Positions 32,430 through 39,913 of a stretch of 40,645 nucleotides of DNA are shown piece by piece. The notes under the pieces are model-generated. The model made no database searches and was not told where the DNA came from. It saw nothing but the letters and a program-made list of their open reading frames with translations. The position numbers and the translations under genes were made by a program. This stretch comes from a virus. Where the stretch lies: IMG/VR virus record IMGVR_UViG_3300037493_000506, positions 1 to 40,645 of that record, one strand, 5' to 3'. Each line of letters begins with the position of its first letter. Position 1 is the stretch's first letter.

Positions 32430-32837
32430 TCAAGAATATTTTATATATTTGAAGTGCTTTTGTTTTGCATAGTAACACATTAGTTCTCCGTGTTCAGCAA
32501 GGTCAAGATGGGGGAGGAGACTTCCCCATTTGATTTCAGCCTCAATGTCTTTTAGTCTAGCGTAGATAATACCATCATCACATGCCCACATAACAACCGG
32601 GTTTAATCTTTTGTCGCACAACTTGACAGCGCGCGCGGCTTGGATGATTAATGGGTAAGCCATGGCTATCGTCTTGTAGCGTGGTGTCACCTCCATGTAA
32701 GCAACCAACTCTCCGTCTTTGAATATCTTGTAGTCAACATCACCCTTGGTCTGCCCTTGGTATGATCCTCCGAATGTTGATATGAATGTGTCGATTGCTT
32801 TTTGTTTCCGTATCTGAACTTCCTCGTTAGAAATCAT
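32430..32837 (-). CDS. PD-(D/E)XK nuclease-like protein
   Basis: A 135-residue protein, the last of the minus-strand unit, ending 8 bp from the convergent giant gene. Residues 32-51 read GDVDYKIFKDGELVAYMEVT: an Asp on a first strand, a hairpin, then an E-x-T strand, as in the PD-(D/E)XK fold, though the usual lysine is replaced by threonine. Later strands (LNPVVMWACDDGIIYARL) and a helix follow in the order of the fold. It may be an inactive or divergent nuclease, or a DNA-end binding protein. It overlaps the VRR-NUC gene by 11 bases, so the two may work together. Confidence 0.5.
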   Translation of the reverse strand: MISNEEVQIRKQKAIDTFISTFGGSYQGQTKGDVDYKIFKDGELVAYMEVTPRYKTIAMAYPLIIQAARAVKLCDKRLNPVVMWACDDGIIYARLKDIEAEIKWGSLLPHLDLAEHGELMCYYAKQKHFKYIKYS

Positions 32838-33273
32838 CGTCTGCTATTGATTTGATTAAATTTTTCATTTCGATAATCACTTGCTGTGCATTGGTGATGG
32901 CTCCATCATACTCCCTGTCAACCAACCCCTCGTATAAATTGGTGAGCATCTCTTGGCACTCTTCGATGTTGAACAGTATGCGCTCGGCTCGGTCGGATTC
33001 TTTTTTCTTCTGAGGGTCCATTTCGTTTTCTGTTAATCCACGGAATACCTCAGTACGTATACCTCGTTCCTTGAGTTCCTTGATTCTAAACTCCTGCAAC
33101 TTAGACAACCTACCAGTGGGAGTCTTGACTTCGCTGAACAGAACTCTAGATCTTGGTGGAATAGCGACGAGGTCGGGGATGCCATTCTTGTTGGTCTTAA
33201 TTAGTTTGATTACGTAGTAGCCGGCTTGCTCAAGTTGTTTGATCCTCTTGGATTGTATCTGTTGTTCGGTCAT
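32827..33273 (-). CDS. VRR-NUC (PD-(D/E)XK) nuclease
   Basis: The start is ATG 33273 (MTEQQIQSKRIKQLEQAGYY), giving 148 residues; the frame extends farther upstream but only inside the preceding gene. The VRR-NUC core is complete: an initial helix, strand YVIKLIKTNKNGIPDLVAI with Asp34, strand RVLFSEVKTPTGRLS with Glu48 and Lys50, then helix KLQEFRIKELKERGIRTEVF. The family cleaves branched or flap DNA, for instance in Holliday junction processing; stand-alone versions occur in many phages. About 60 extra C-terminal helical residues (from KKKESDRAERILFNIEE on) are added. It overlaps the upstream gene by 44 bases and the downstream one by 11. Confidence 0.8.
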   Translation of the reverse strand: MTEQQIQSKRIKQLEQAGYYVIKLIKTNKNGIPDLVAIPPRSRVLFSEVKTPTGRLSKLQEFRIKELKERGIRTEVFRGLTENEMDPQKKKESDRAERILFNIEECQEMLTNLYEGLVDREYDGAITNAQQVIIEMKNLIKSIADDDF

Positions 33274-33595
33274 AATTTGATTCCACGAAATGCATCGCTT
33301 CTTCAAAACTACTAAAATCTCCGATAACTTTCTTATTATAAGTCAATCTATTAAGCCAATATCCATCACCCCATACCCTTGTGATGACAACTTTGTCTAG
33401 GTATTGGTTGTAAGTGGTGCGGTAATAGTCGGCAGATGACTGCGACTTGAGCGCCCCATTGAAGTGGGAGTACTCGATCTCGTCCTTGTTGTGCTTAGCC
33501 ACTACTTCGCGATTATCGTTAAGCCAAATACAAAATTCCATCCACCTTAGTTCATCGAACTTGTTGAGAATTAACTGGGTTGTTGTTTGTTTCAT
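33230..33595 (-). CDS. hypothetical protein (121 aa)
   Basis: A soluble alpha-beta protein beginning MKQTTTQLILNKFDELRWME, with an aromatic central part (YYRTTYNQYLDKVVITRVWG) and SFEEAMHFVESNYDRT near the end. I see no known motif. It overlaps both flanking genes by 44 bases, unusual for this phage, but the frame is long, uses the same strand as the replication genes and there is no better frame for the interval 33274-33551. Function unknown. Confidence 0.55.
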   Translation of the reverse strand: MKQTTTQLILNKFDELRWMEFCIWLNDNREVVAKHNKDEIEYSHFNGALKSQSSADYYRTTYNQYLDKVVITRVWGDGYWLNRLTYNKKVIGDFSSFEEAMHFVESNYDRTTDTIQEDQTT

Positions 33596-33740
33596 TATCT
33601 TTCTTGTTTAAGTAGTCAGCGAAGCTAGTGGCTTGGTTGTACTGCGCAAACCTAGCGATAAGTTCTTGGTCATAGTAGATCCTCCATTCGATTACCTCAT
33701 TGACAATCGCTTGGATCACTCGTGCTTTATTGTATTCCAT
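33552..33740 (-). CDS. hypothetical protein (62 aa)
   Basis: A 62-residue protein from ATG 33740, five bases after the helicase stop in transcription order. It is helical with a Gln/Asn-rich tail (DNETNNNPVNSQQVR) and shows no recognised motif. The middle (RIYYDQELIARFAQYNQATS) could be a small interaction helix. Its 44-base overlap with the next gene weakens confidence slightly. Function unknown. Confidence 0.5.
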   Translation of the reverse strand: MEYNKARVIQAIVNEVIEWRIYYDQELIARFAQYNQATSFADYLNKKDNETNNNPVNSQQVR

Positions 33741-33745
33741 ATTTT

Positions 33746-35176
33746 TTACAAACTAAATAAATCTTTTTTGAAATGGTTAATAGTATAATCTTTTTTATCT
33801 TTCACTGCTTGGTAAATCTTATGTTCAATGCCATCCTTAGCGAAGACCCAGTACACTTGGTTCTTTAACCGGTCCATCGTTGTCATCCGGTCCCTGCTCT
33901 GCCAATAACTGGTAGCACTGAAGTCGATATTGTAGTACACCAAGTACTCAGCCTTCCTTAGTGAGATACCCTCACGCCCCGACACAATCTGAAGCGCGAT
34001 GTTCTTCCATGTGTCGTTGAACTCGTCCAAGTCCGTGGTCAACTCATCACCGAACACTTGCTTGAGCGACTCTAACTCCTCCTTGAACTTGTAGAAAATA
34101 CCAATCTTACACCCCTCAAAGTTTTCTTTGATGAACTCCGCCTTGCTCGTGTCGATAATCATTGACTTCCCGCTCTCGAACTTAATGGTGCCACTGTACA
34201 TCTGATGCATCTTGGTCATCAACTTCACCGATGTGTCGGCTAGTATCACCTCGTCCTTGCCCTCAATCACCAAATCCTTTTGGAGCCGTTTAATCATCTT
34301 ATAAGTTGATGGCTTCATCTCGACCTCAAGAATCTCTTCGGTGGTCTCTACGACGAAGCCTGCGTCTTTCTGCGTGTAGTTTATGGTGTATGGCTTGATG
34401 GCCTCGAGTATCTTCTCCTTACCATGGCTGTAGTCCTTGATGAAAAGGCTGTTCACTTTCTTCACCTTGATGTCAGCGTAGACCTCAGCAAAGCGGTAGA
34501 AGTTTTTGTACTCAGCGAATGGATTGCCGGGGATGGCATACACTTGGTGGTACATTTGGCAGTACGACTCGGGCGTTGGCGTACCCGACAGCAGTATCAC
34601 TACTGGCTTTTGCCTAGCGATAATCTGCCCGGCCAACTCAGCCCGTCCACTTGGCTTAGGGAATGCACCCAGCGAGTGTGCCTCATCCAAGATTACCACG
34701 TCCCACTTGTTGTCGATGGTGTGTAGACTCTCGTAGTTGATCACGTCAATCTCAAAGCCCGGCCCGAGCATCAGGTAATCCTGCTCGATGGATGAGATGG
34801 CTTTCTTCTTGGTGACGAACAGCACACGCTTAGCGCCAATCTTATCGCACATACCAAGAGATGTAAGCGTCTTGCCGGTGCGTACCTCCATGGCTAGGTA
34901 AAGGAATTTGTGTCTTCGAAGACACTCCACGCCCCTGTCTATGATGTCTATTTGGTAATCTCTAAATTCAATCTTTCCTTTTTCCATTTTTTCTAAATAA
35001 AATTTCACGCTGTTGCGGATCCTTTCTTCGACCGGTTCATTGGTCTCGAACATCCGCTCTGTCTTCTTGTTCTTCGTCACCACCGTAGACTCACAGGCAT
35101 CCTGTAGTTTCTTACACCACTGATACATGTCCATGTCGCTGAAGCCGGGGATTCTATTGATCAACTCCGTCATCAT
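33746..35176 (-). CDS. SF2 (SNF2/DEAD-type) DNA helicase
   Basis: This 476-residue protein is an SF2 ATPase with all main motifs: Q-region FRDYQIDIIDRG (71-82), motif I MEVRTGKTL (96-104), motif II ILDEAHS (162-168), motif III LSGTPTPE (196-203), motif V VSGREGISL (398-406) and motif VI QSRDRMTTMDR (426-436). Phage SNF2-like helicases translocate on duplex DNA and act in replication fork repair or recombination. It follows the primase-helicase with a 23-base overlap; reinitiation is helped by an unusually good Shine-Dalgarno (AAAGGAGGTG) 5 to 8 bases before the tandem ATG codons at 35176 and 35173. The length is at the compact end for the family. Confidence 0.88.
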   Translation of the reverse strand: MMTELINRIPGFSDMDMYQWCKKLQDACESTVVTKNKKTERMFETNEPVEERIRNSVKFYLEKMEKGKIEFRDYQIDIIDRGVECLRRHKFLYLAMEVRTGKTLTSLGMCDKIGAKRVLFVTKKKAISSIEQDYLMLGPGFEIDVINYESLHTIDNKWDVVILDEAHSLGAFPKPSGRAELAGQIIARQKPVVILLSGTPTPESYCQMYHQVYAIPGNPFAEYKNFYRFAEVYADIKVKKVNSLFIKDYSHGKEKILEAIKPYTINYTQKDAGFVVETTEEILEVEMKPSTYKMIKRLQKDLVIEGKDEVILADTSVKLMTKMHQMYSGTIKFESGKSMIIDTSKAEFIKENFEGCKIGIFYKFKEELESLKQVFGDELTTDLDEFNDTWKNIALQIVSGREGISLRKAEYLVYYNIDFSATSYWQSRDRMTTMDRLKNQVYWVFAKDGIEHKIYQAVKDKKDYTINHFKKDLFSL

Positions 35177-37562
35177 GTTGCACCTCCTTTGGTTTAAGTA
35201 CTAGCCATTTGCCAATCATATCCCTGCCTTCCTCCGGCATATTACCCGAGGTGAACACAGCGTAAGAGATAATCCACTTCCAAAACTTCTGCCGAGAGAC
35301 AGTCATGCGTGAGCGTGGTCCGTAGTCGGGGTAGTTATCTATAAAGTCCTCGTACAAATCGTTCGCCCTTAATCTCTTCCCGTGCTCCATCACTCTGTTC
35401 TCTTGGTTGTTGATTAGACCACACCACTCGATGAAGTCGTGGCAAGTCTCAGCAGACAACTGCCGTATCTTTAGGTTGACGAACTTGCTTTTGACTAGAC
35501 CGGTATGCAGATAGGATTTCAAGCAACCAATCATGTAGTTGTCAAACTCACACCACTCGTCGTCGTTCCAATCGCTGAACATCAACTTACCGAACTCATC
35601 CAATGGACTCAAGTTTTTGTTGTAGTGCTGATGCAGTTCCAACTCCCACTTCCTACGAGCGAACGAGTTACCCGCGCCTTTGATGGCGTAGTTGGTGGTG
35701 ATGGCAATCTTCGGTGATCTGCTGAATGGTATCTTGATGGCGTCCTTGTTCTTCTTCTCTAGCGTTAGACCTTCGGTCACAACGCTGAACAACCGCTCGA
35801 AGTCAAAGTATTTCTTCACATCATCGAACACCAAGATCTGCGTGTCAGCAGATACCAACTGATAGGCGAACGACCGCTCGAATGTAAACGACTTACCATC
35901 AATGGTTACCACCTTCTTCATCTGACCAAGGGCATTCATAAACAATCCCTTGCCCGTGCCACCCTCGGGGTTATCACTGATGACCTCATCGTTGAGTATC
36001 ACCGCAGGGCAGAACGACAAACTCTTGTGTGCATGCATCATGAATCCAATCGTGGATTGCATTGACTCGATGCGCGATATATCTTGGGCGCATATGTTCT
36101 CGATGAACCGGTTGTAATAGCAACTGGCTCTCACCTCACACAAAGTGAAGACACGGTCAATGACGTGGTCTTTCCAAACATAACCACCCAAGTCTAGGTA
36201 ATCAATCGACGATATGTCCTTGCTCGTAATCTTGACCGCGCAGTTGCGGTAGTACAAGTAGGCAGTGTCCTTTGAATCCTCGATGAAGTAGATGTCGATC
36301 GTTGATAGAAGCGATAAGAACTCCTCCTTAAAGAACCGCGTGTTGTCGGCGAAGTAATTGTATACTGAGATGTCATCCAACTCAATCAGATATGTGAGAA
36401 CAAAGTCCTTGATCTCTTTCTCCGATGCGTGGTCAATCAAGTTGTTGGTGACCTTGACGAACACATAGTTCTTGCTACCCTCCGGGCAATACTTGTAGAA
36501 GCCCGAGTCTTCCAAGAACTTCTTGAACTGAATGTGAATAATTTTGATGGCCCCTTTGTCAGTCTTTGCCCAGAATGTTTGCTTGGAATTCTCTTCCTCG
36601 ATTCGGGTAAGCACTGCATCGATTGTATCGCTATCCAAGTTGGAGTCCTGTAGTTGGAAGCGAATTTCTTTTTTTGGTACACCCCTCCTAACCTTAGCGC
36701 GTATCTGATTCATACGCTCCTCATCTTGGTATGCCTTGCTTCCGAAGTTCTGCTTGTTCACATAAGCAGAGTCGATGGTGCGCTGTATCTCAGAAAGCGG
36801 GAAGTCGGCGGTGGCGTATTGGTTCAGCACATAGGATGCTAGGCTCCTGTTCACGCCGAAGTCATTCAATGCCATAGCAAGAATGTAGGCGTTGTGATTG
36901 CGCTGGCCTTCGCTCATTGGGTACTTCTTAGACCACCACTTGATGAGGATGTCTACAATCTTATTCTCGTCGGTGATGGTGATGGTCGGTGCGTCTACGT
37001 TGCGTTGTACCTCGCGGTACTCAGCGTCCTCTATCTTGTCCCATATGGATGAGTTCTCATTGATGTGTATCAACGGATCGTAAGACTCGTAGCACACACG
37101 AGATATGTTCTTGGATGTCTTGTCGAAGTAGGGTGAATTGAAATGCTTCTCAAGGCTATTGAAATAGTTCTGATGGTTCTCTGCATCAGCCGGTATCTTG
37201 ACCAATACCTTTAAGCCATTGCCCGATGGGCTGACGAATACCGAGTAGACAAACTTGCTCTTGGATAAGTTCTCCTTGTCTTCAAGCAATGCCTTCTGCT
37301 TCTCGTAGCCATCAAAGTCCAAGCACATTAAACCACTATGATCGACGATGGCGCTGTCGTTTCGTTTGTTAAATGTACCGGAGAAACATATGGCAGGTAG
37401 TTGTTTCTTCAGTTCGTTCCGCTCTGTCTTATTTTTTTCAGAACGAATCCTCTTGACCAAGTCTTTGCTCGATCCATCTTTGACCCGTTGTAAAATACCC
37501 ATCACATCACGATGAAATGGAGTCGAAGTATCTTTTATATTTTGAAAAATGGTTACATTCAT
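35154..37562 (-). CDS. primase-helicase (BT4734/VirE-N type primase fused to SF3-like helicase)
   Basis: Started at ATG 37562 (MNVTIFQNIKDTSTPFHRDV); the longer frame would reach into the repeat array. The 802 residues hold an N-terminal BT4734/VirE-N primase-like domain with LMCLDFDG (78-85, Asp82 and Asp84), a SPSGNGLKVLVKI strand (111-123) and Arg155; a PriCT-like helical region (about 217-268); and a C-terminal SF3/D5-like ATPase with Walker A NPEGGTGKGLF (531-541), Walker B ILVFDDV (576-582), sensor PKIAITTNYAIKG (617-629) and arginine finger in FARRKWELEL (634-643). It would unwind and prime phage DNA. Directly downstream of the origin-like repeats, it is the natural replisome core. Confidence 0.85.
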   Translation of the reverse strand: MNVTIFQNIKDTSTPFHRDVMGILQRVKDGSSKDLVKRIRSEKNKTERNELKKQLPAICFSGTFNKRNDSAIVDHSGLMCLDFDGYEKQKALLEDKENLSKSKFVYSVFVSPSGNGLKVLVKIPADAENHQNYFNSLEKHFNSPYFDKTSKNISRVCYESYDPLIHINENSSIWDKIEDAEYREVQRNVDAPTITITDENKIVDILIKWWSKKYPMSEGQRNHNAYILAMALNDFGVNRSLASYVLNQYATADFPLSEIQRTIDSAYVNKQNFGSKAYQDEERMNQIRAKVRRGVPKKEIRFQLQDSNLDSDTIDAVLTRIEEENSKQTFWAKTDKGAIKIIHIQFKKFLEDSGFYKYCPEGSKNYVFVKVTNNLIDHASEKEIKDFVLTYLIELDDISVYNYFADNTRFFKEEFLSLLSTIDIYFIEDSKDTAYLYYRNCAVKITSKDISSIDYLDLGGYVWKDHVIDRVFTLCEVRASCYYNRFIENICAQDISRIESMQSTIGFMMHAHKSLSFCPAVILNDEVISDNPEGGTGKGLFMNALGQMKKVVTIDGKSFTFERSFAYQLVSADTQILVFDDVKKYFDFERLFSVVTEGLTLEKKNKDAIKIPFSRSPKIAITTNYAIKGAGNSFARRKWELELHQHYNKNLSPLDEFGKLMFSDWNDDEWCEFDNYMIGCLKSYLHTGLVKSKFVNLKIRQLSAETCHDFIEWCGLINNQENRVMEHGKRLRANDLYEDFIDNYPDYGPRSRMTVSRQKFWKWIISYAVFTSGNMPEEGRDMIGKWLVLKPKEVQHDDGVDQ

Positions 37563-37570
37563 GGTAAAAA

Positions 37571-37698
37571 TATGTTGAAAATGGTACAAATATGTTGAAA
37601 ATGGTGGCAGATATGTTGAAAATGTACGAAAATATGTTAAAGTTGATTTTGTTAAGTTGTTGATTACTAATTACTTAACTATAAATATGTTGAAAATG
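37571..37698 (+). repeat. iteron array, direct copies of TATGTTGAAAATG
   Basis: Exact copies of the 13-mer start at 37571, 37591, 37612 and 37686; a degenerate copy (TATGTTAAAGTTG) starts at 37633. The first four including the degenerate one are 20, 21 and 21 bp apart, two helix turns, so proteins bound to them would face the same side. On the opposite strand the core reads CATTTTCAACATA, whose TTTTCAACA differs from the DnaA box TTATCCACA at two positions. Confidence 0.85.
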
Positions 37699-37712
37699 TT
37701 AATTTTAACCCC

Positions 37713-37778
37713 TTTTTAAAAATAAAAAATAAAAAAGAGAGAGATAGAGAAATAAATAGAGAAGTAGGAAAAGTAAAT
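37713..37778 (+). other. C-free, A-rich tract (possible unwinding element)
   Basis: Sixty-six bases with no C on the plus strand, beginning with TTTTTAAAAATAAAAAATAA and continuing as a GA-rich run (GAGAGAGATAGAGAAATAAA). The tract sits between direct and inverted iterons. Low stability and strand asymmetry fit a DNA unwinding element, but function is inferred. Confidence 0.5.
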
Positions 37779-37781
37779 CAA

Positions 37782-37793
37782 CATTTCAACATA
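37782..37793 (-). repeat. inverted copy of the iteron
   Basis: CATTTCAACATA is the reverse complement of the iteron core with one A deleted. It faces the direct array across the C-free tract, about 85 bp from the nearest direct copy. Confidence 0.7.
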
Positions 37794-37803
37794 TTCTTGG
37801 AGA

Positions 37804-37828
37804 CAAAAAAGGGGAGCGAACTCCCCTT
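37804..37828 (-). terminator. minus-strand intrinsic terminator after the SSB-like gene
   Basis: Read on the minus strand, AAGGGGAG pairs perfectly with CTCCCCTT around the stable tetraloop TTCG, followed by TTTTTTG. It lies about 20 bases after the SSB-like stop and separates that operon from the iteron region and primase-helicase gene. Confidence 0.9.
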
Positions 37829-37847
37829 AGTCCCAGTGTTTGTTGGT

Positions 37848-38156
37848 CTAGAACGGTAATTCGTCATCCAAATCAACCTCTTTTACGGGTGTATTTTTCG
37901 ACATGGAATCAACATTTTTTGACATATTTCCAACATTTTTCGACATGGATGATGGTTCGAAGTTGTCTAGTTCGCAGTATGGGTTACCACTTCTGCCGTA
38001 CTTGATGGAGATATTAACCCATCCATTCTTTTGGTTTTCCTTCATGAACGCTACCGCGTCTTCAACTTTGATAGCCAGTCTTCCAACTACAAAATCGGGG
38101 GCGTTCTCATTTCTCTTGAAAGAGAAGCCGTCTGCAAATACTTTTTCTTGTGACAT
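37848..38156 (-). CDS. single-stranded DNA-binding (SSB-like) protein
   Basis: A 102-residue protein with a beta-rich N-terminal domain (about 1-66: VFADGFSFKRNENAPDFVVG, then GWVNISIKYGRSGNPYCELD) that resembles small phage SSB proteins, a flexible linker made of three 7-residue repeats (MSKNVGN, MSKNVDS, MSKNTPV; 71-91), and an acidic tail ending DLDDELPF. The D-D-x-L/I-P-F ending is the classic SSB tip that recruits repair and replication enzymes. Neighbours upstream are the annealing protein and exonuclease, so it would protect strands during replication and recombination. The linker DNA is a perfect 21-bp periodic repeat. Confidence 0.75.
   Translation of the reverse strand: MSQEKVFADGFSFKRNENAPDFVVGRLAIKVEDAVAFMKENQKNGWVNISIKYGRSGNPYCELDNFEPSSMSKNVGNMSKNVDSMSKNTPVKEVDLDDELPF
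37894..37955 (+). repeat. 21-bp tandem repeat inside the SSB linker
   Basis: Three units start at 37894, 37915 and 37936 with exact 21-base spacing, each opening TTTTT(C/T)GACAT. The middle unit contains TTTGACATATTT, close to TTTCAACATATTT of the nearby iterons, and CCAACA and TCAACA also occur. Translation gives the MSKN heptad repeats of the linker. Confidence 0.75.
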
Positions 38157-38161
38157 GTGTG

Positions 38162-38899
38162 TTATAAAATTTCGTTAATGTAATGATTGATGATATCCTC
38201 GCTGGCATTCTGCCCGAAGTATCGTTGGTAAACTTGAGATGCTCTCTCTACTTTCTGCGCTCCGTATTCAACGAACTCTGTTGATGGTTTATACATACCC
38301 AACTGACAGGTCTCTTTGTCTACGACAAGGAATACCAATGGCTTACCAAACAACTGTTGGTAGATGTAGCATTGGCTGTCGTAGTTGTAGGCACGGGCCG
38401 AGTACTTGAACTTGTTGATGTCACCGGTGGTTTTCAAATCAACAACGAACTCGGGGGTGACGATGTCAGCCTTGCCCTTCCATGGTAGATCGTGGAAGGT
38501 GGTAACCTCGGGCACCTCGTACTGATTGCCTTGGCCGTAGATCAATTCGTAGAACGAATAGTTCTGACGAACAGCATCCACCCACCTGTTGACCTCAGCA
38601 ACTTCTTTGGTCAGCATGCAGAACTCAACGCCCAACTCTTGGATGAAAGCCTTGTACTCTTTCGTGGTCCGTGTTGATGTGTCGCAGACGGGGAAGTCAA
38701 CTGCCTTCTCCGGCTCAAGTAAAAGTTGGTGGAACAACCGCCCTTCAGCAAAGGCTTTGCCATCCTTACGGAATGTACCAAAAGCGGTAGGATTATTCAA
38801 CAAAGTTCCTACATCTGAGTTTGACAGGAACTGTTTGCCTATCCCAGTATAGTATTCTTGGTCGTTTTTAAGCGATTTAAGAACCTCTAACCTATCCAT
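38162..38899 (-). CDS. RecE/Cas4-like PD-(D/E)XK exonuclease
   Basis: Started at ATG 38899 (245 residues; the TTG farther upstream lies deeper in the preceding gene). The RecB/RecE-type nuclease signature is complete: helix with AEGRLFHQLLLEP (residues 51-63, His57), Glu131 in VPEVTT, GKADIV with Asp145, VVDLKTTGD with Asp154 and Lys156, and YNYDSQCYIYQQL with Gln176. Such phage exonucleases (DUF3799/PDDEXK_1-like) resect double-strand ends to give 3' tails for the annealing protein, which is encoded immediately upstream with an 8-base overlap. Together with the SSB-like gene downstream this is a classical Red/RecET-type recombination cassette. Confidence 0.85.
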   Translation of the reverse strand: MDRLEVLKSLKNDQEYYTGIGKQFLSNSDVGTLLNNPTAFGTFRKDGKAFAEGRLFHQLLLEPEKAVDFPVCDTSTRTTKEYKAFIQELGVEFCMLTKEVAEVNRWVDAVRQNYSFYELIYGQGNQYEVPEVTTFHDLPWKGKADIVTPEFVVDLKTTGDINKFKYSARAYNYDSQCYIYQQLFGKPLVFLVVDKETCQLGMYKPSTEFVEYGAQKVERASQVYQRYFGQNASEDIINHYINEIL

Positions 38900-39578
38900 T
38901 GGTACCAAGTATTGCCCCGAGTTCTTTGAGTGCAGCAGGAGCGATTGTAAAGCGTGACTTTAAAATCTTCTCTACTTCTTCCATGCTCTTGTCCTTGTTG
39001 TCGCCAATCCACTTGACAACTTTGTCCCAGTCTTCGCTGTCTTTCTTGAGTTGTGGCTTGGCCGCAGGCTCTGATGTCTTGGCAGCCTTAGCCAACGGCT
39101 TGGTAGTGGTGTTAGCAATGGCGTCTGACTCTGACTCGGGAATATCCTCACCGGCAAAGATGTAGTGACCTAGACCAAACATGGCTAGGTTCTTAACCAA
39201 GCAGCGCATCAATGTCTTGTTGATGTCGAACATGCTTGCTTGCTCAACTGACTTGTCGCCATAGCGGGTAGAGTAAGAGTAAGCCTCGTTCTTCATGGCC
39301 TTGTTCGCTCCGTCCATAACCGGAAGCCACATCTCAAGCGTCTGCCCTTGGATGGTTACGCTGGTCATCACCATGTAGCCTAGAGCCTCATCGAATGAAT
39401 AGATCTGCTGAGATACCGGACATCTCACGATTGAGTACGTTGCATCGGGGTAGGTCTTCTTTACTTCGGCCCAAGCCCAAGCCCATGACAGGTAGGTCAG
39501 CCCGCTTTTCTTTTCGACCTTCTCGTTGACATTGATAGCGCTCAATGTTTCGAATACTGATTTTGTTTTTTCTGACAT
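38892..39578 (-). CDS. Sak3/DUF1071-like single-strand annealing protein
   Basis: This 228-residue protein matches the Sak3/DUF1071 annealing-protein pattern: TYLSWAWAWAEVKKTYPDAT (residues 28-47), GYMVMTSVTIQGQTLEMWLP, VMDGANKAMK, and the C-terminal core MFDINKTLMRCLVKNLAMFG followed by LGHYIFAGEDIP. The family belongs to the Rad52-like group of phage recombinases that pair complementary single strands. The core ends near residue 150; a Lys/Ala/Pro linker and a small helical tail (about 180-228) follow, possibly for SSB or exonuclease contact. The leader contains AATTTAATCAAATCTAAT, similar to leaders at 3366 and 9619. Confidence 0.88.
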   Translation of the reverse strand: MSEKTKSVFETLSAINVNEKVEKKSGLTYLSWAWAWAEVKKTYPDATYSIVRCPVSQQIYSFDEALGYMVMTSVTIQGQTLEMWLPVMDGANKAMKNEAYSYSTRYGDKSVEQASMFDINKTLMRCLVKNLAMFGLGHYIFAGEDIPESESDAIANTTTKPLAKAAKTSEPAAKPQLKKDSEDWDKVVKWIGDNKDKSMEEVEKILKSRFTIAPAALKELGAILGTNG

Positions 39579-39589
39579 ATTAGATTTGA

Positions 39590-39913
39590 TTAAATTGTTT
39601 TTTCTAATTCAAAGCCCACTGACTTTTGGATTCTATCTACTAAGAATTTATAGTCGGGATCTGATTCTACTTTCTCTTTGATCTTCTTGATACCATTGAC
39701 AACTGCCGGGTACTTCAATGGCAATCCTCTGTCCTCCATTAGCCTTCTAATATCAGCAAGTGATATGTCTCTTGCCGAGCATAGGTAGCACAGCAACTGT
39801 CTTGCATCCACCACGTCTTGTCTTTTTGTCCTAAGGAACATAGCCTCCGGATCCCTCATAGAGAAGGTCTTCGCCACTCGGTCTACGAATTGATTGAATA
39901 ATATTTTCTTCAT
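39590..39913 (-). CDS. stand-alone DnaA domain IV-like DNA-binding protein
   Basis: A 107-residue protein whose residues 29-100 align by eye with the C-terminal DNA-binding domain of DnaA: TKRQDVVDARQLLCYLCSAR matches the basic-loop/R-x-R-Q helix region, DISLADIRRLMEDRG the helix-turn-helix start, and YPAVVNGIKKIKEKVE the recognition helix and beyond. The usual D-H-T-T-V signature that reads the DnaA box is changed to KYPAV (67-71). No AAA+ ATPase part is present. Phages and plasmids sometimes keep only this domain as initiator or regulator. Its likely targets are the DnaA-box-like repeats at 37571-37793 (inference). It overlaps the upstream gene by ATGA. Confidence 0.75.
   Translation of the reverse strand: MKKILFNQFVDRVAKTFSMRDPEAMFLRTKRQDVVDARQLLCYLCSARDISLADIRRLMEDRGLPLKYPAVVNGIKKIKEKVESDPDYKFLVDRIQKSVGFELEKTI

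Follow-up and report, generated by a model that had tools for sequence, protein, structure and literature searches.

A DnaA domain IV-only phage protein and arrays of altered DnaA boxes: candidate private origins in a family of aquatic phages

Does a phage need a whole DnaA protein in order to mark the place where its replication starts? The question is raised by a virus record of 40,645 nt, IMG/VR IMGVR_UViG_3300037493_000506, which we analysed over its full length (positions 1 to 40,645, hereafter the window). It encodes a 107-residue protein that resembles the DNA-binding domain of DnaA (39590–39913, minus strand), and it carries an array of DnaA-box-like repeats (array I, a candidate origin) in the non-coding gap between an SSB-like gene and a primase gene (37563–37847). 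Domain IV of DnaA alone neither hydrolyses ATP nor loads DnaB by the known DnaA route. Comparison of the window with its relatives leads us to think it probable that the small protein is an initiator consisting of domain IV only, and that it marks one or two private origins for the primase-helicase of the phage.

A stand-alone DnaA domain IV and an array of altered boxes

The original prediction, made from the letters of the window, took the 107-residue protein to be the DNA-binding domain of DnaA without its ATPase, and Pfam, NCBIfam and the predicted fold bear this out. The Pfam family Bac_DnaA_C matches the protein with E = 2.7e-5 (24.5 bits, under the gathering score of 31.5), and the NCBIfam DnaA profile covers it at positions 347–435 of 437 only, that is, domain IV alone. 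The AAA+ ATPase domain III and domains I–II are absent, so that the protein is not a full DnaA initiator. Comparison by hidden Markov model (HMM) matched the protein to DnaA of A. aeolicus with E = 4e-9. Structure prediction had been suggested as a check, and the AlphaFold2 (AF2) model, obtained from an input alignment of 42 sequences comprising the window protein and those of related phages, has a mean pLDDT of 95 and a pTM of 0.88. When this model was compared with the PDB using Foldseek, 8 of the 8 best matches were to DnaA domain IV (probability 1.00, TMq 0.72–0.75); entries 3pvp, 1l8q, 1j1v, 3r8f and 8btg are among these matches, and no other fold scores. By predicted fold and by profile the protein is a stand-alone DnaA domain IV, though it is not one by the DHTTV signature: as had been read from the sequence, K-Y-P-A-V replaces D-H-T-T-V in the recognition helix. 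The basic loop is TKRQDVVDAR. Among 114 family members, the Asp at the Asp433 position is changed in 109 and the His is retained in 90; one relative, L070, is of KHSSI type. The closest published map of DnaA contacts with DNA is reportedly that of Fujikawa (2003). The domain IV family also gives a weak HMM match (E = 0.017) to PDB 9z7o_A, whose entry name is Escherichia VapS.

The gap that holds array I has a GC content of 28%, against 43.5% for the whole window. Scored with the box derived from the family (described below), it contains eight 9 bp boxes with the core TTTCAACAT, six on the minus strand and two on the plus strand. The primase gene starts with the ATG at 37562, so that the first box is situated just upstream of it. 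From there, the minus-strand boxes are three copies of TTTCAACAT (37572–37580, 37592–37600 and 37613–37621), one of CTTTAACAT (37634–37642), and a tandem pair with 9 bp spacing, TTTCAACAT (37687–37695) and AATTAACAT (37696–37704). A site AATCAACAACTTA, matching the IHF consensus WATCAANNNNTTR, lies on the same strand at 37653–37665. The plus-strand boxes form an inverted pair, AATCAACAT (37776–37784) and TTTCAACAT (37784–37792). Between the inverted and tandem pairs runs an AT-rich tract (37705–37775; 70–85% AT in 20 nt steps), purine-rich on the plus strand, which is a candidate unwinding element. Exact copies of TATGTTGAAAAT start at 37571, 37591, 37612 and 37686. The original prediction had counted five direct and one inverted copy of an iteron; the iterons are real, but the number was too low, the abutting partners at 37696 and 37776 having been missed. 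The statement that the iteron core matches TTATCCACA at 7 of 9 positions is correct. On the far side of the array, a hairpin with a T run resembling an intrinsic terminator (37804–37828, minus strand) would close the SSB-like operon before array I; its minimum free energy is −16.6 kcal/mol (z = −2.5), and its stem is identical in 5 of 5 members of the window's clade.

The eight boxes fall within 250 bp, whereas no cluster exceeded four when the window was dinucleotide-shuffled 20 times. A chance origin of the repeats was considered, and is ruled out by these shuffles together with the comparison with random windows in family loci that is given below.

Boxes and layout across the family

Scans of IMG/VR returned four close relatives of the domain IV protein and 325 contigs that encode the primase, and an alignment query returned 367 candidate stretches encoding a relative of the domain IV protein. 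Bac_DnaA_C proteins are found in all 50 of the 50 primase-related records that were searched whole, and score above the Pfam cut-off in 34 of them. The system is real, family-wide and strongly conserved in a large family of aquatic phages; judging by the relatives of the primase, the host is likely to be one of the Bacteroidota. Bacterial carriers were also considered: one scan of genome contigs gave three loci, all on short contigs of metagenome-assembled genomes (one of 61.6 kb, the size of a phage genome), which we set aside as probable phage contigs.

When 54 non-redundant gaps upstream of the primase were searched de novo for enriched 7-mers, ATCGACA came out on top, seen 75 times where 1.1 were expected. 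The family box is WWTYRACAT, mostly AATCGACAT. Compared with TTATCCACA, it retains ATC.ACA and has a purine in place of C at position 6; in the window's clade this purine is A, and the flanks are T-rich. The gaps hold a mean of 4.0 boxes, while random windows from the loci concerned average 0.24, and at least three boxes are present in 46 of the 54 gaps, compared with 0.2% of random windows. The layout of array I is kept in the relatives and is fixed, consisting of the inverted pair, an AT-rich tract of ∼80 bp, the tandem pair, the IHF-consensus site and boxes spaced by 11 bp. Recurrent spacings are 9 bp within the tandem pair (42 times), 11 bp (21 times) and, between the tandem pair and the group that follows, 41 bp (20 times); of 32 family gaps, 28 have 77–83 bp between inverted and tandem pairs. 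The exact IHF consensus occurs in 26 of the 54 gaps, where 2.5 would be expected, and in those 26 it is on one strand and always between the tandem pair and the downstream boxes. Its distance from the tandem pair is 30 bp in the window's clade and 18–19 bp otherwise, a shift of 11 bp, or one helical turn. In sequence terms, the AT-rich tract and the IHF site, each at a set place, agree with an oriC-type origin. The earlier description of the boxes as DnaA-box-like has held up, given that they are far above chance and that their position, spacing and sequence are conserved across the family.

A further array, made up of the same parts (array II), is present at 42.6–42.8 kb in the complete circular relative MW202828 (60,850 bp). 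We found a box-bearing second array in 20 records examined, 9–11 kb upstream of the primase where this was checked, and the IHF consensus in 14 of the 20 second-array stretches. In the 11 stretches read at length it adjoins a gene whose product starts like GroEL (the gene is annotated groEL in MW202828), before the early genes; in the partial window, it falls outside the coordinates covered. Examples in a divergent intergenic region are L117:42619–42805 and L287:2542–2883. Genes for GroES/GroEL and a FAD-dependent thymidylate synthase are present in MW202828 (L117:40671–42561; L116:14225–14899). With regard to box position 6, a 63.8 kb member of the window's clade has A-type boxes in both arrays; across the genomes compared, both arrays are A-type in G003, and G-type or G-majority in most others.

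The positions of the two arrays are also those that operators might occupy, and the main rival explanation is that the domain IV protein regulates transcription of the primase operon through array I, and of the groEL/early region through array II, as DnaA itself acts at its own promoter. Array I ends ∼10 bp short of the primase ATG and follows a terminator, so that a promoter must be there, and array II sits beside groEL, between genes that diverge. We nevertheless regard this explanation as unlikely, because eight boxes, an 80 bp AT-rich spacer and an IHF site exceed the needs of an operator, and because the domain IV protein's own gene, inside an operon, has no boxes. Furthermore, the arrays are differently oriented with respect to the genes: the tandem boxes of array I are turned towards the start of the primase gene, while array II has its inverted pair on the groEL side and, beyond its tandem boxes, ∼1 kb of DNA that is mostly non-coding. 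This difference argues that the arrays act through DNA structure rather than as promoter operators, and the repetition of the layout beside groEL indicates that the layout is independent of the neighbouring gene.

Origin marking weighed against other roles

Many relatives encode a second domain IV protein of ∼170 residues, most copies of which have a DHTT-type helix; its C-terminal extension is of coiled-coil-like appearance. It is encoded downstream of the primase, for example at L116:15374–15940 and L086:1198–1698. Its existence in so many relatives, and the similarity of the boxes to DnaA boxes, bring up the possibility that another factor (host DnaA, this second protein or the primase-helicase) reads the arrays and that the 107-residue protein acts otherwise. 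We hold this to be improbable. The second protein has a DHTT-type helix, yet canonical boxes form no cluster in the phages: 32 records, the window among them, contain only 13 exact copies of TTATCCACA, and these are scattered; this lack of clustering also led us to rule out canonical host-type boxes as phage sites. The 63.8 kb clade member and the relative G044 both keep dense arrays, although the second protein was not detected in either. Finally, phages that have the canonical-helix type alone have no array: the cultured phages mumin9-1, HTVC035P, Gundel_1 and phi46:1 encode DnaA domain IV proteins (L284:9961–10299; L285:8307–8828; L286:8310–8735; L300:29088–29600), and the stretches of them that we examined contain no array of either box type. 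This pattern suggests that the altered-helix type serves the private arrays, whereas the canonical type would serve host boxes. The recruitment or exclusion of host DnaA, which the original prediction had offered as a further role for the 107-residue protein, fits the second, canonical-helix protein better. No WWTYRACAT array was found in Elemovirus or in phage Panino, which have a related primase N-domain and other initiator proteins.

Box-like sites are also present within the coding linker of the SSB-like gene, where five of them (starting at 37896, 37907, 37917, 37928 and 37938; 37896–37946, plus strand) are spaced by 11, 10, 11 and 10 bp and encode MSKN repeats. This 21 bp pattern is also found in L002, L003 and L005, all of the window's clade; it is absent from the other family SSB linkers examined, which have at most one stray box. 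Synonymous recoding of the window linker gave a mean of 1.4 sites, against the five that are real, and 4 of 5000 recodings reached five. The linkers of L002, L003 and L005 are also above the recoding expectation, these four sequences being related and not independent. Since the sites exceed what synonymous recoding gives, the DNA is likely to be under selection besides the peptide. The spread of the array into the SSB gene, the phased tandem sites and the presence of two arrays per genome could also be read as centromere-like, packaging or titration sites, with roles in segregation, DNA packaging or copy control. Against such roles, which we consider very improbable, array I lies within the replication operon and not beside the terminase genes, and no partition gene is annotated near the arrays of MW202828.

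We therefore prefer the explanation that a domain IV-only initiator marks private origins. In the mechanism that we envisage, the 107-residue protein would read the altered boxes WWTYRACAT (here mostly TTTCAACAT), set with helical-turn spacing around the AT-rich tract and the IHF site. The bound multimer, with bending by an IHF/HU-type host protein, would mark and distort the origin and bring in the primase-helicase encoded beside the array, which would provide the ATPase activity that DnaA itself would supply; array II, ∼10 kb upstream, would be a second origin. In favour of this explanation we also count the location of the domain IV gene in a recombination/replication operon with Sak, exonuclease, SSB and primase. 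As to the original prediction overall, its fold, iterons and private sites stand, and the analysis adds an oriC-like layout with an IHF-consensus site, while the marking of an origin for the primase-helicase, along with the binding of the boxes by the 107-residue protein, melting, helicase recruitment and origin activity, is what we infer from them.

Several points weigh against origin marking. A lone domain IV cannot melt DNA via the known DnaA mechanism, and array I, like an operator, overlaps the region in which a primase promoter has to be located. The comparisons support boxes that are private rather than host-type, but TTATCCACA is the standard box and may not be the host's own. In two distant relatives (G060, C1:10469–10571; G057, C1:53340–53443), array II is of mixed A- and G-type while the primase-side array is A-type. 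Protein and sites had been proposed to have diverged together, and both are indeed altered; the residue-level co-change, however, is only suggestive. On a primase tree of 75 rows, box position 6 switches between A and G at least four times independently, and Pro at the T435 position accompanies the switch in about two of four cases and never goes the opposite way (p = 0.5, not significant); a P435-like residue is also found with G-type boxes (L045, L069, L081). GC skew, which had been suggested as a check, has its minimum in MW202828 at 43.9 kb, at the junction of divergent genes close to array II and not at array I, and is not usable as origin evidence because it is confounded by gene direction.

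A more far-reaching account can be put forward tentatively, and we think it more doubtful than not. In it, the lineage would have reduced DnaA to domain IV, retuned this to a new box and acquired two private oriC-like origins with its own primase-helicase, so that initiation would not depend on host DnaA. The second protein, carried by many members and with the canonical helix, would act on host boxes, giving a split between own and host sites, and in the window's clade the boxes would have spread into the SSB coding sequence.

The genes around array I, all on the minus strand, keep the order domain IV, Sak, exonuclease, SSB, gap, primase, helicase in close relatives. By profile match these are a Sak single-strand annealing protein (38892–39578), a PDDEXK exonuclease (DUF3799, exonuclease VIII-like; 38162–38908) and, beyond the array, an SF2-type helicase (ResIII; 33746–35176). 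The SSB-like gene (37848–38156) encodes 102 residues ending in DLDDELPF, an SSB-type acidic tip, and its protein has no Pfam or NCBIfam match. The primase-helicase (35157–37562, 802 residues) has a BT4734-like_N/PrimPol-like N-terminus by Pfam and NCBIfam (E = 1e-10 for the PrimPol-like match, under the cut-off), and a match to DUF5906 (E = 2e-7) in its C-terminal part, from which we take the helicase to be presumably of SF3 type. Its AF2 model has a pLDDT of 51 and is too poor to use, and a sequence search of the PDB gave no relatives. Small genes, including one for a VRR-NUC nuclease (32827–33306), occupy 32430–33740, from the helicase to a convergent junction.

Comparison with known systems

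In the literature on phage DnaA, domain IV and origins we found phage 'DnaA' annotations and no description of this system; 'DnaA' is annotated, for example, in HTVC010P-type and Polaribacter phages (PMC6811365, PMC4615864). The window protein shares a domain IV without ATPase, encoded in early or replication regions, with Flavobacterium mumin9-1 gp28, Tenacibaculum Gundel_1 gp36, Cellulophaga phi46:1 gp40 and Pelagibacter HTVC035P gp24, but these four keep DHTT-like helices (DHATI, DHATV, DHSSM, DHTTI). Its neighbourhood resembles the modules of Elemovirus and Maribacter phage Panino, with an annealing protein, an exonuclease, an annotated 'replication initiation protein' and a BT4734_N primase/helicase; they differ in having another annotated initiator protein upstream of the primase. 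A related primase N-domain with a differing initiator upstream fits the exchange of initiator modules.

If the private-origin explanation is right, these viruses may mark their own replication start without the host's starter protein. DnaA is thought to need its ATPase for origin opening, and a conserved system with domain IV only would separate recognition from melting and reveal the part of DnaA on which the definition of an origin depends. It would also offer a natural orthogonal pair of box and protein, predict where hundreds of uncultured phage genomes have their origins, and suggest a job for the domain IV-only 'DnaA' genes annotated in many cultured phages.

With bacterial DnaA and oriC the phage system has in common the domain IV fold, the basic loop, multiple oriented 9 bp boxes, the IHF-consensus site and the AT-rich tract; in E. 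coli oriC, too, the IHF consensus is positioned (IBS1) among DnaA boxes TTATnCACA (PMC10380432). It differs in that the phage protein has no domains I–III, and hence no ATPase or helicase-loading domain, in that the box has a purine at position 6 and is extended by T, with no cluster of TTATCCACA, and in that a primase-helicase is encoded beside the array. The repBAC/oriV layout of RSF1010-type IncQ plasmids (PMC7557826) offers a second likeness, since there a small iteron-binding protein (RepC) is separate from the plasmid's own helicase (RepA) and primase (RepB), and the iterons lie by an AT-rich region. Unlike the phage protein, RepC is no DnaA domain; the iterons of IncQ plasmids are ∼20 bp long; and it is in the phage that primase and helicase are fused. 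A division of work like that among RepC, RepA and RepB is by analogy the most likely scheme, and, as far as anatomy can tell, the phage system would work like oriC or an iteron system.

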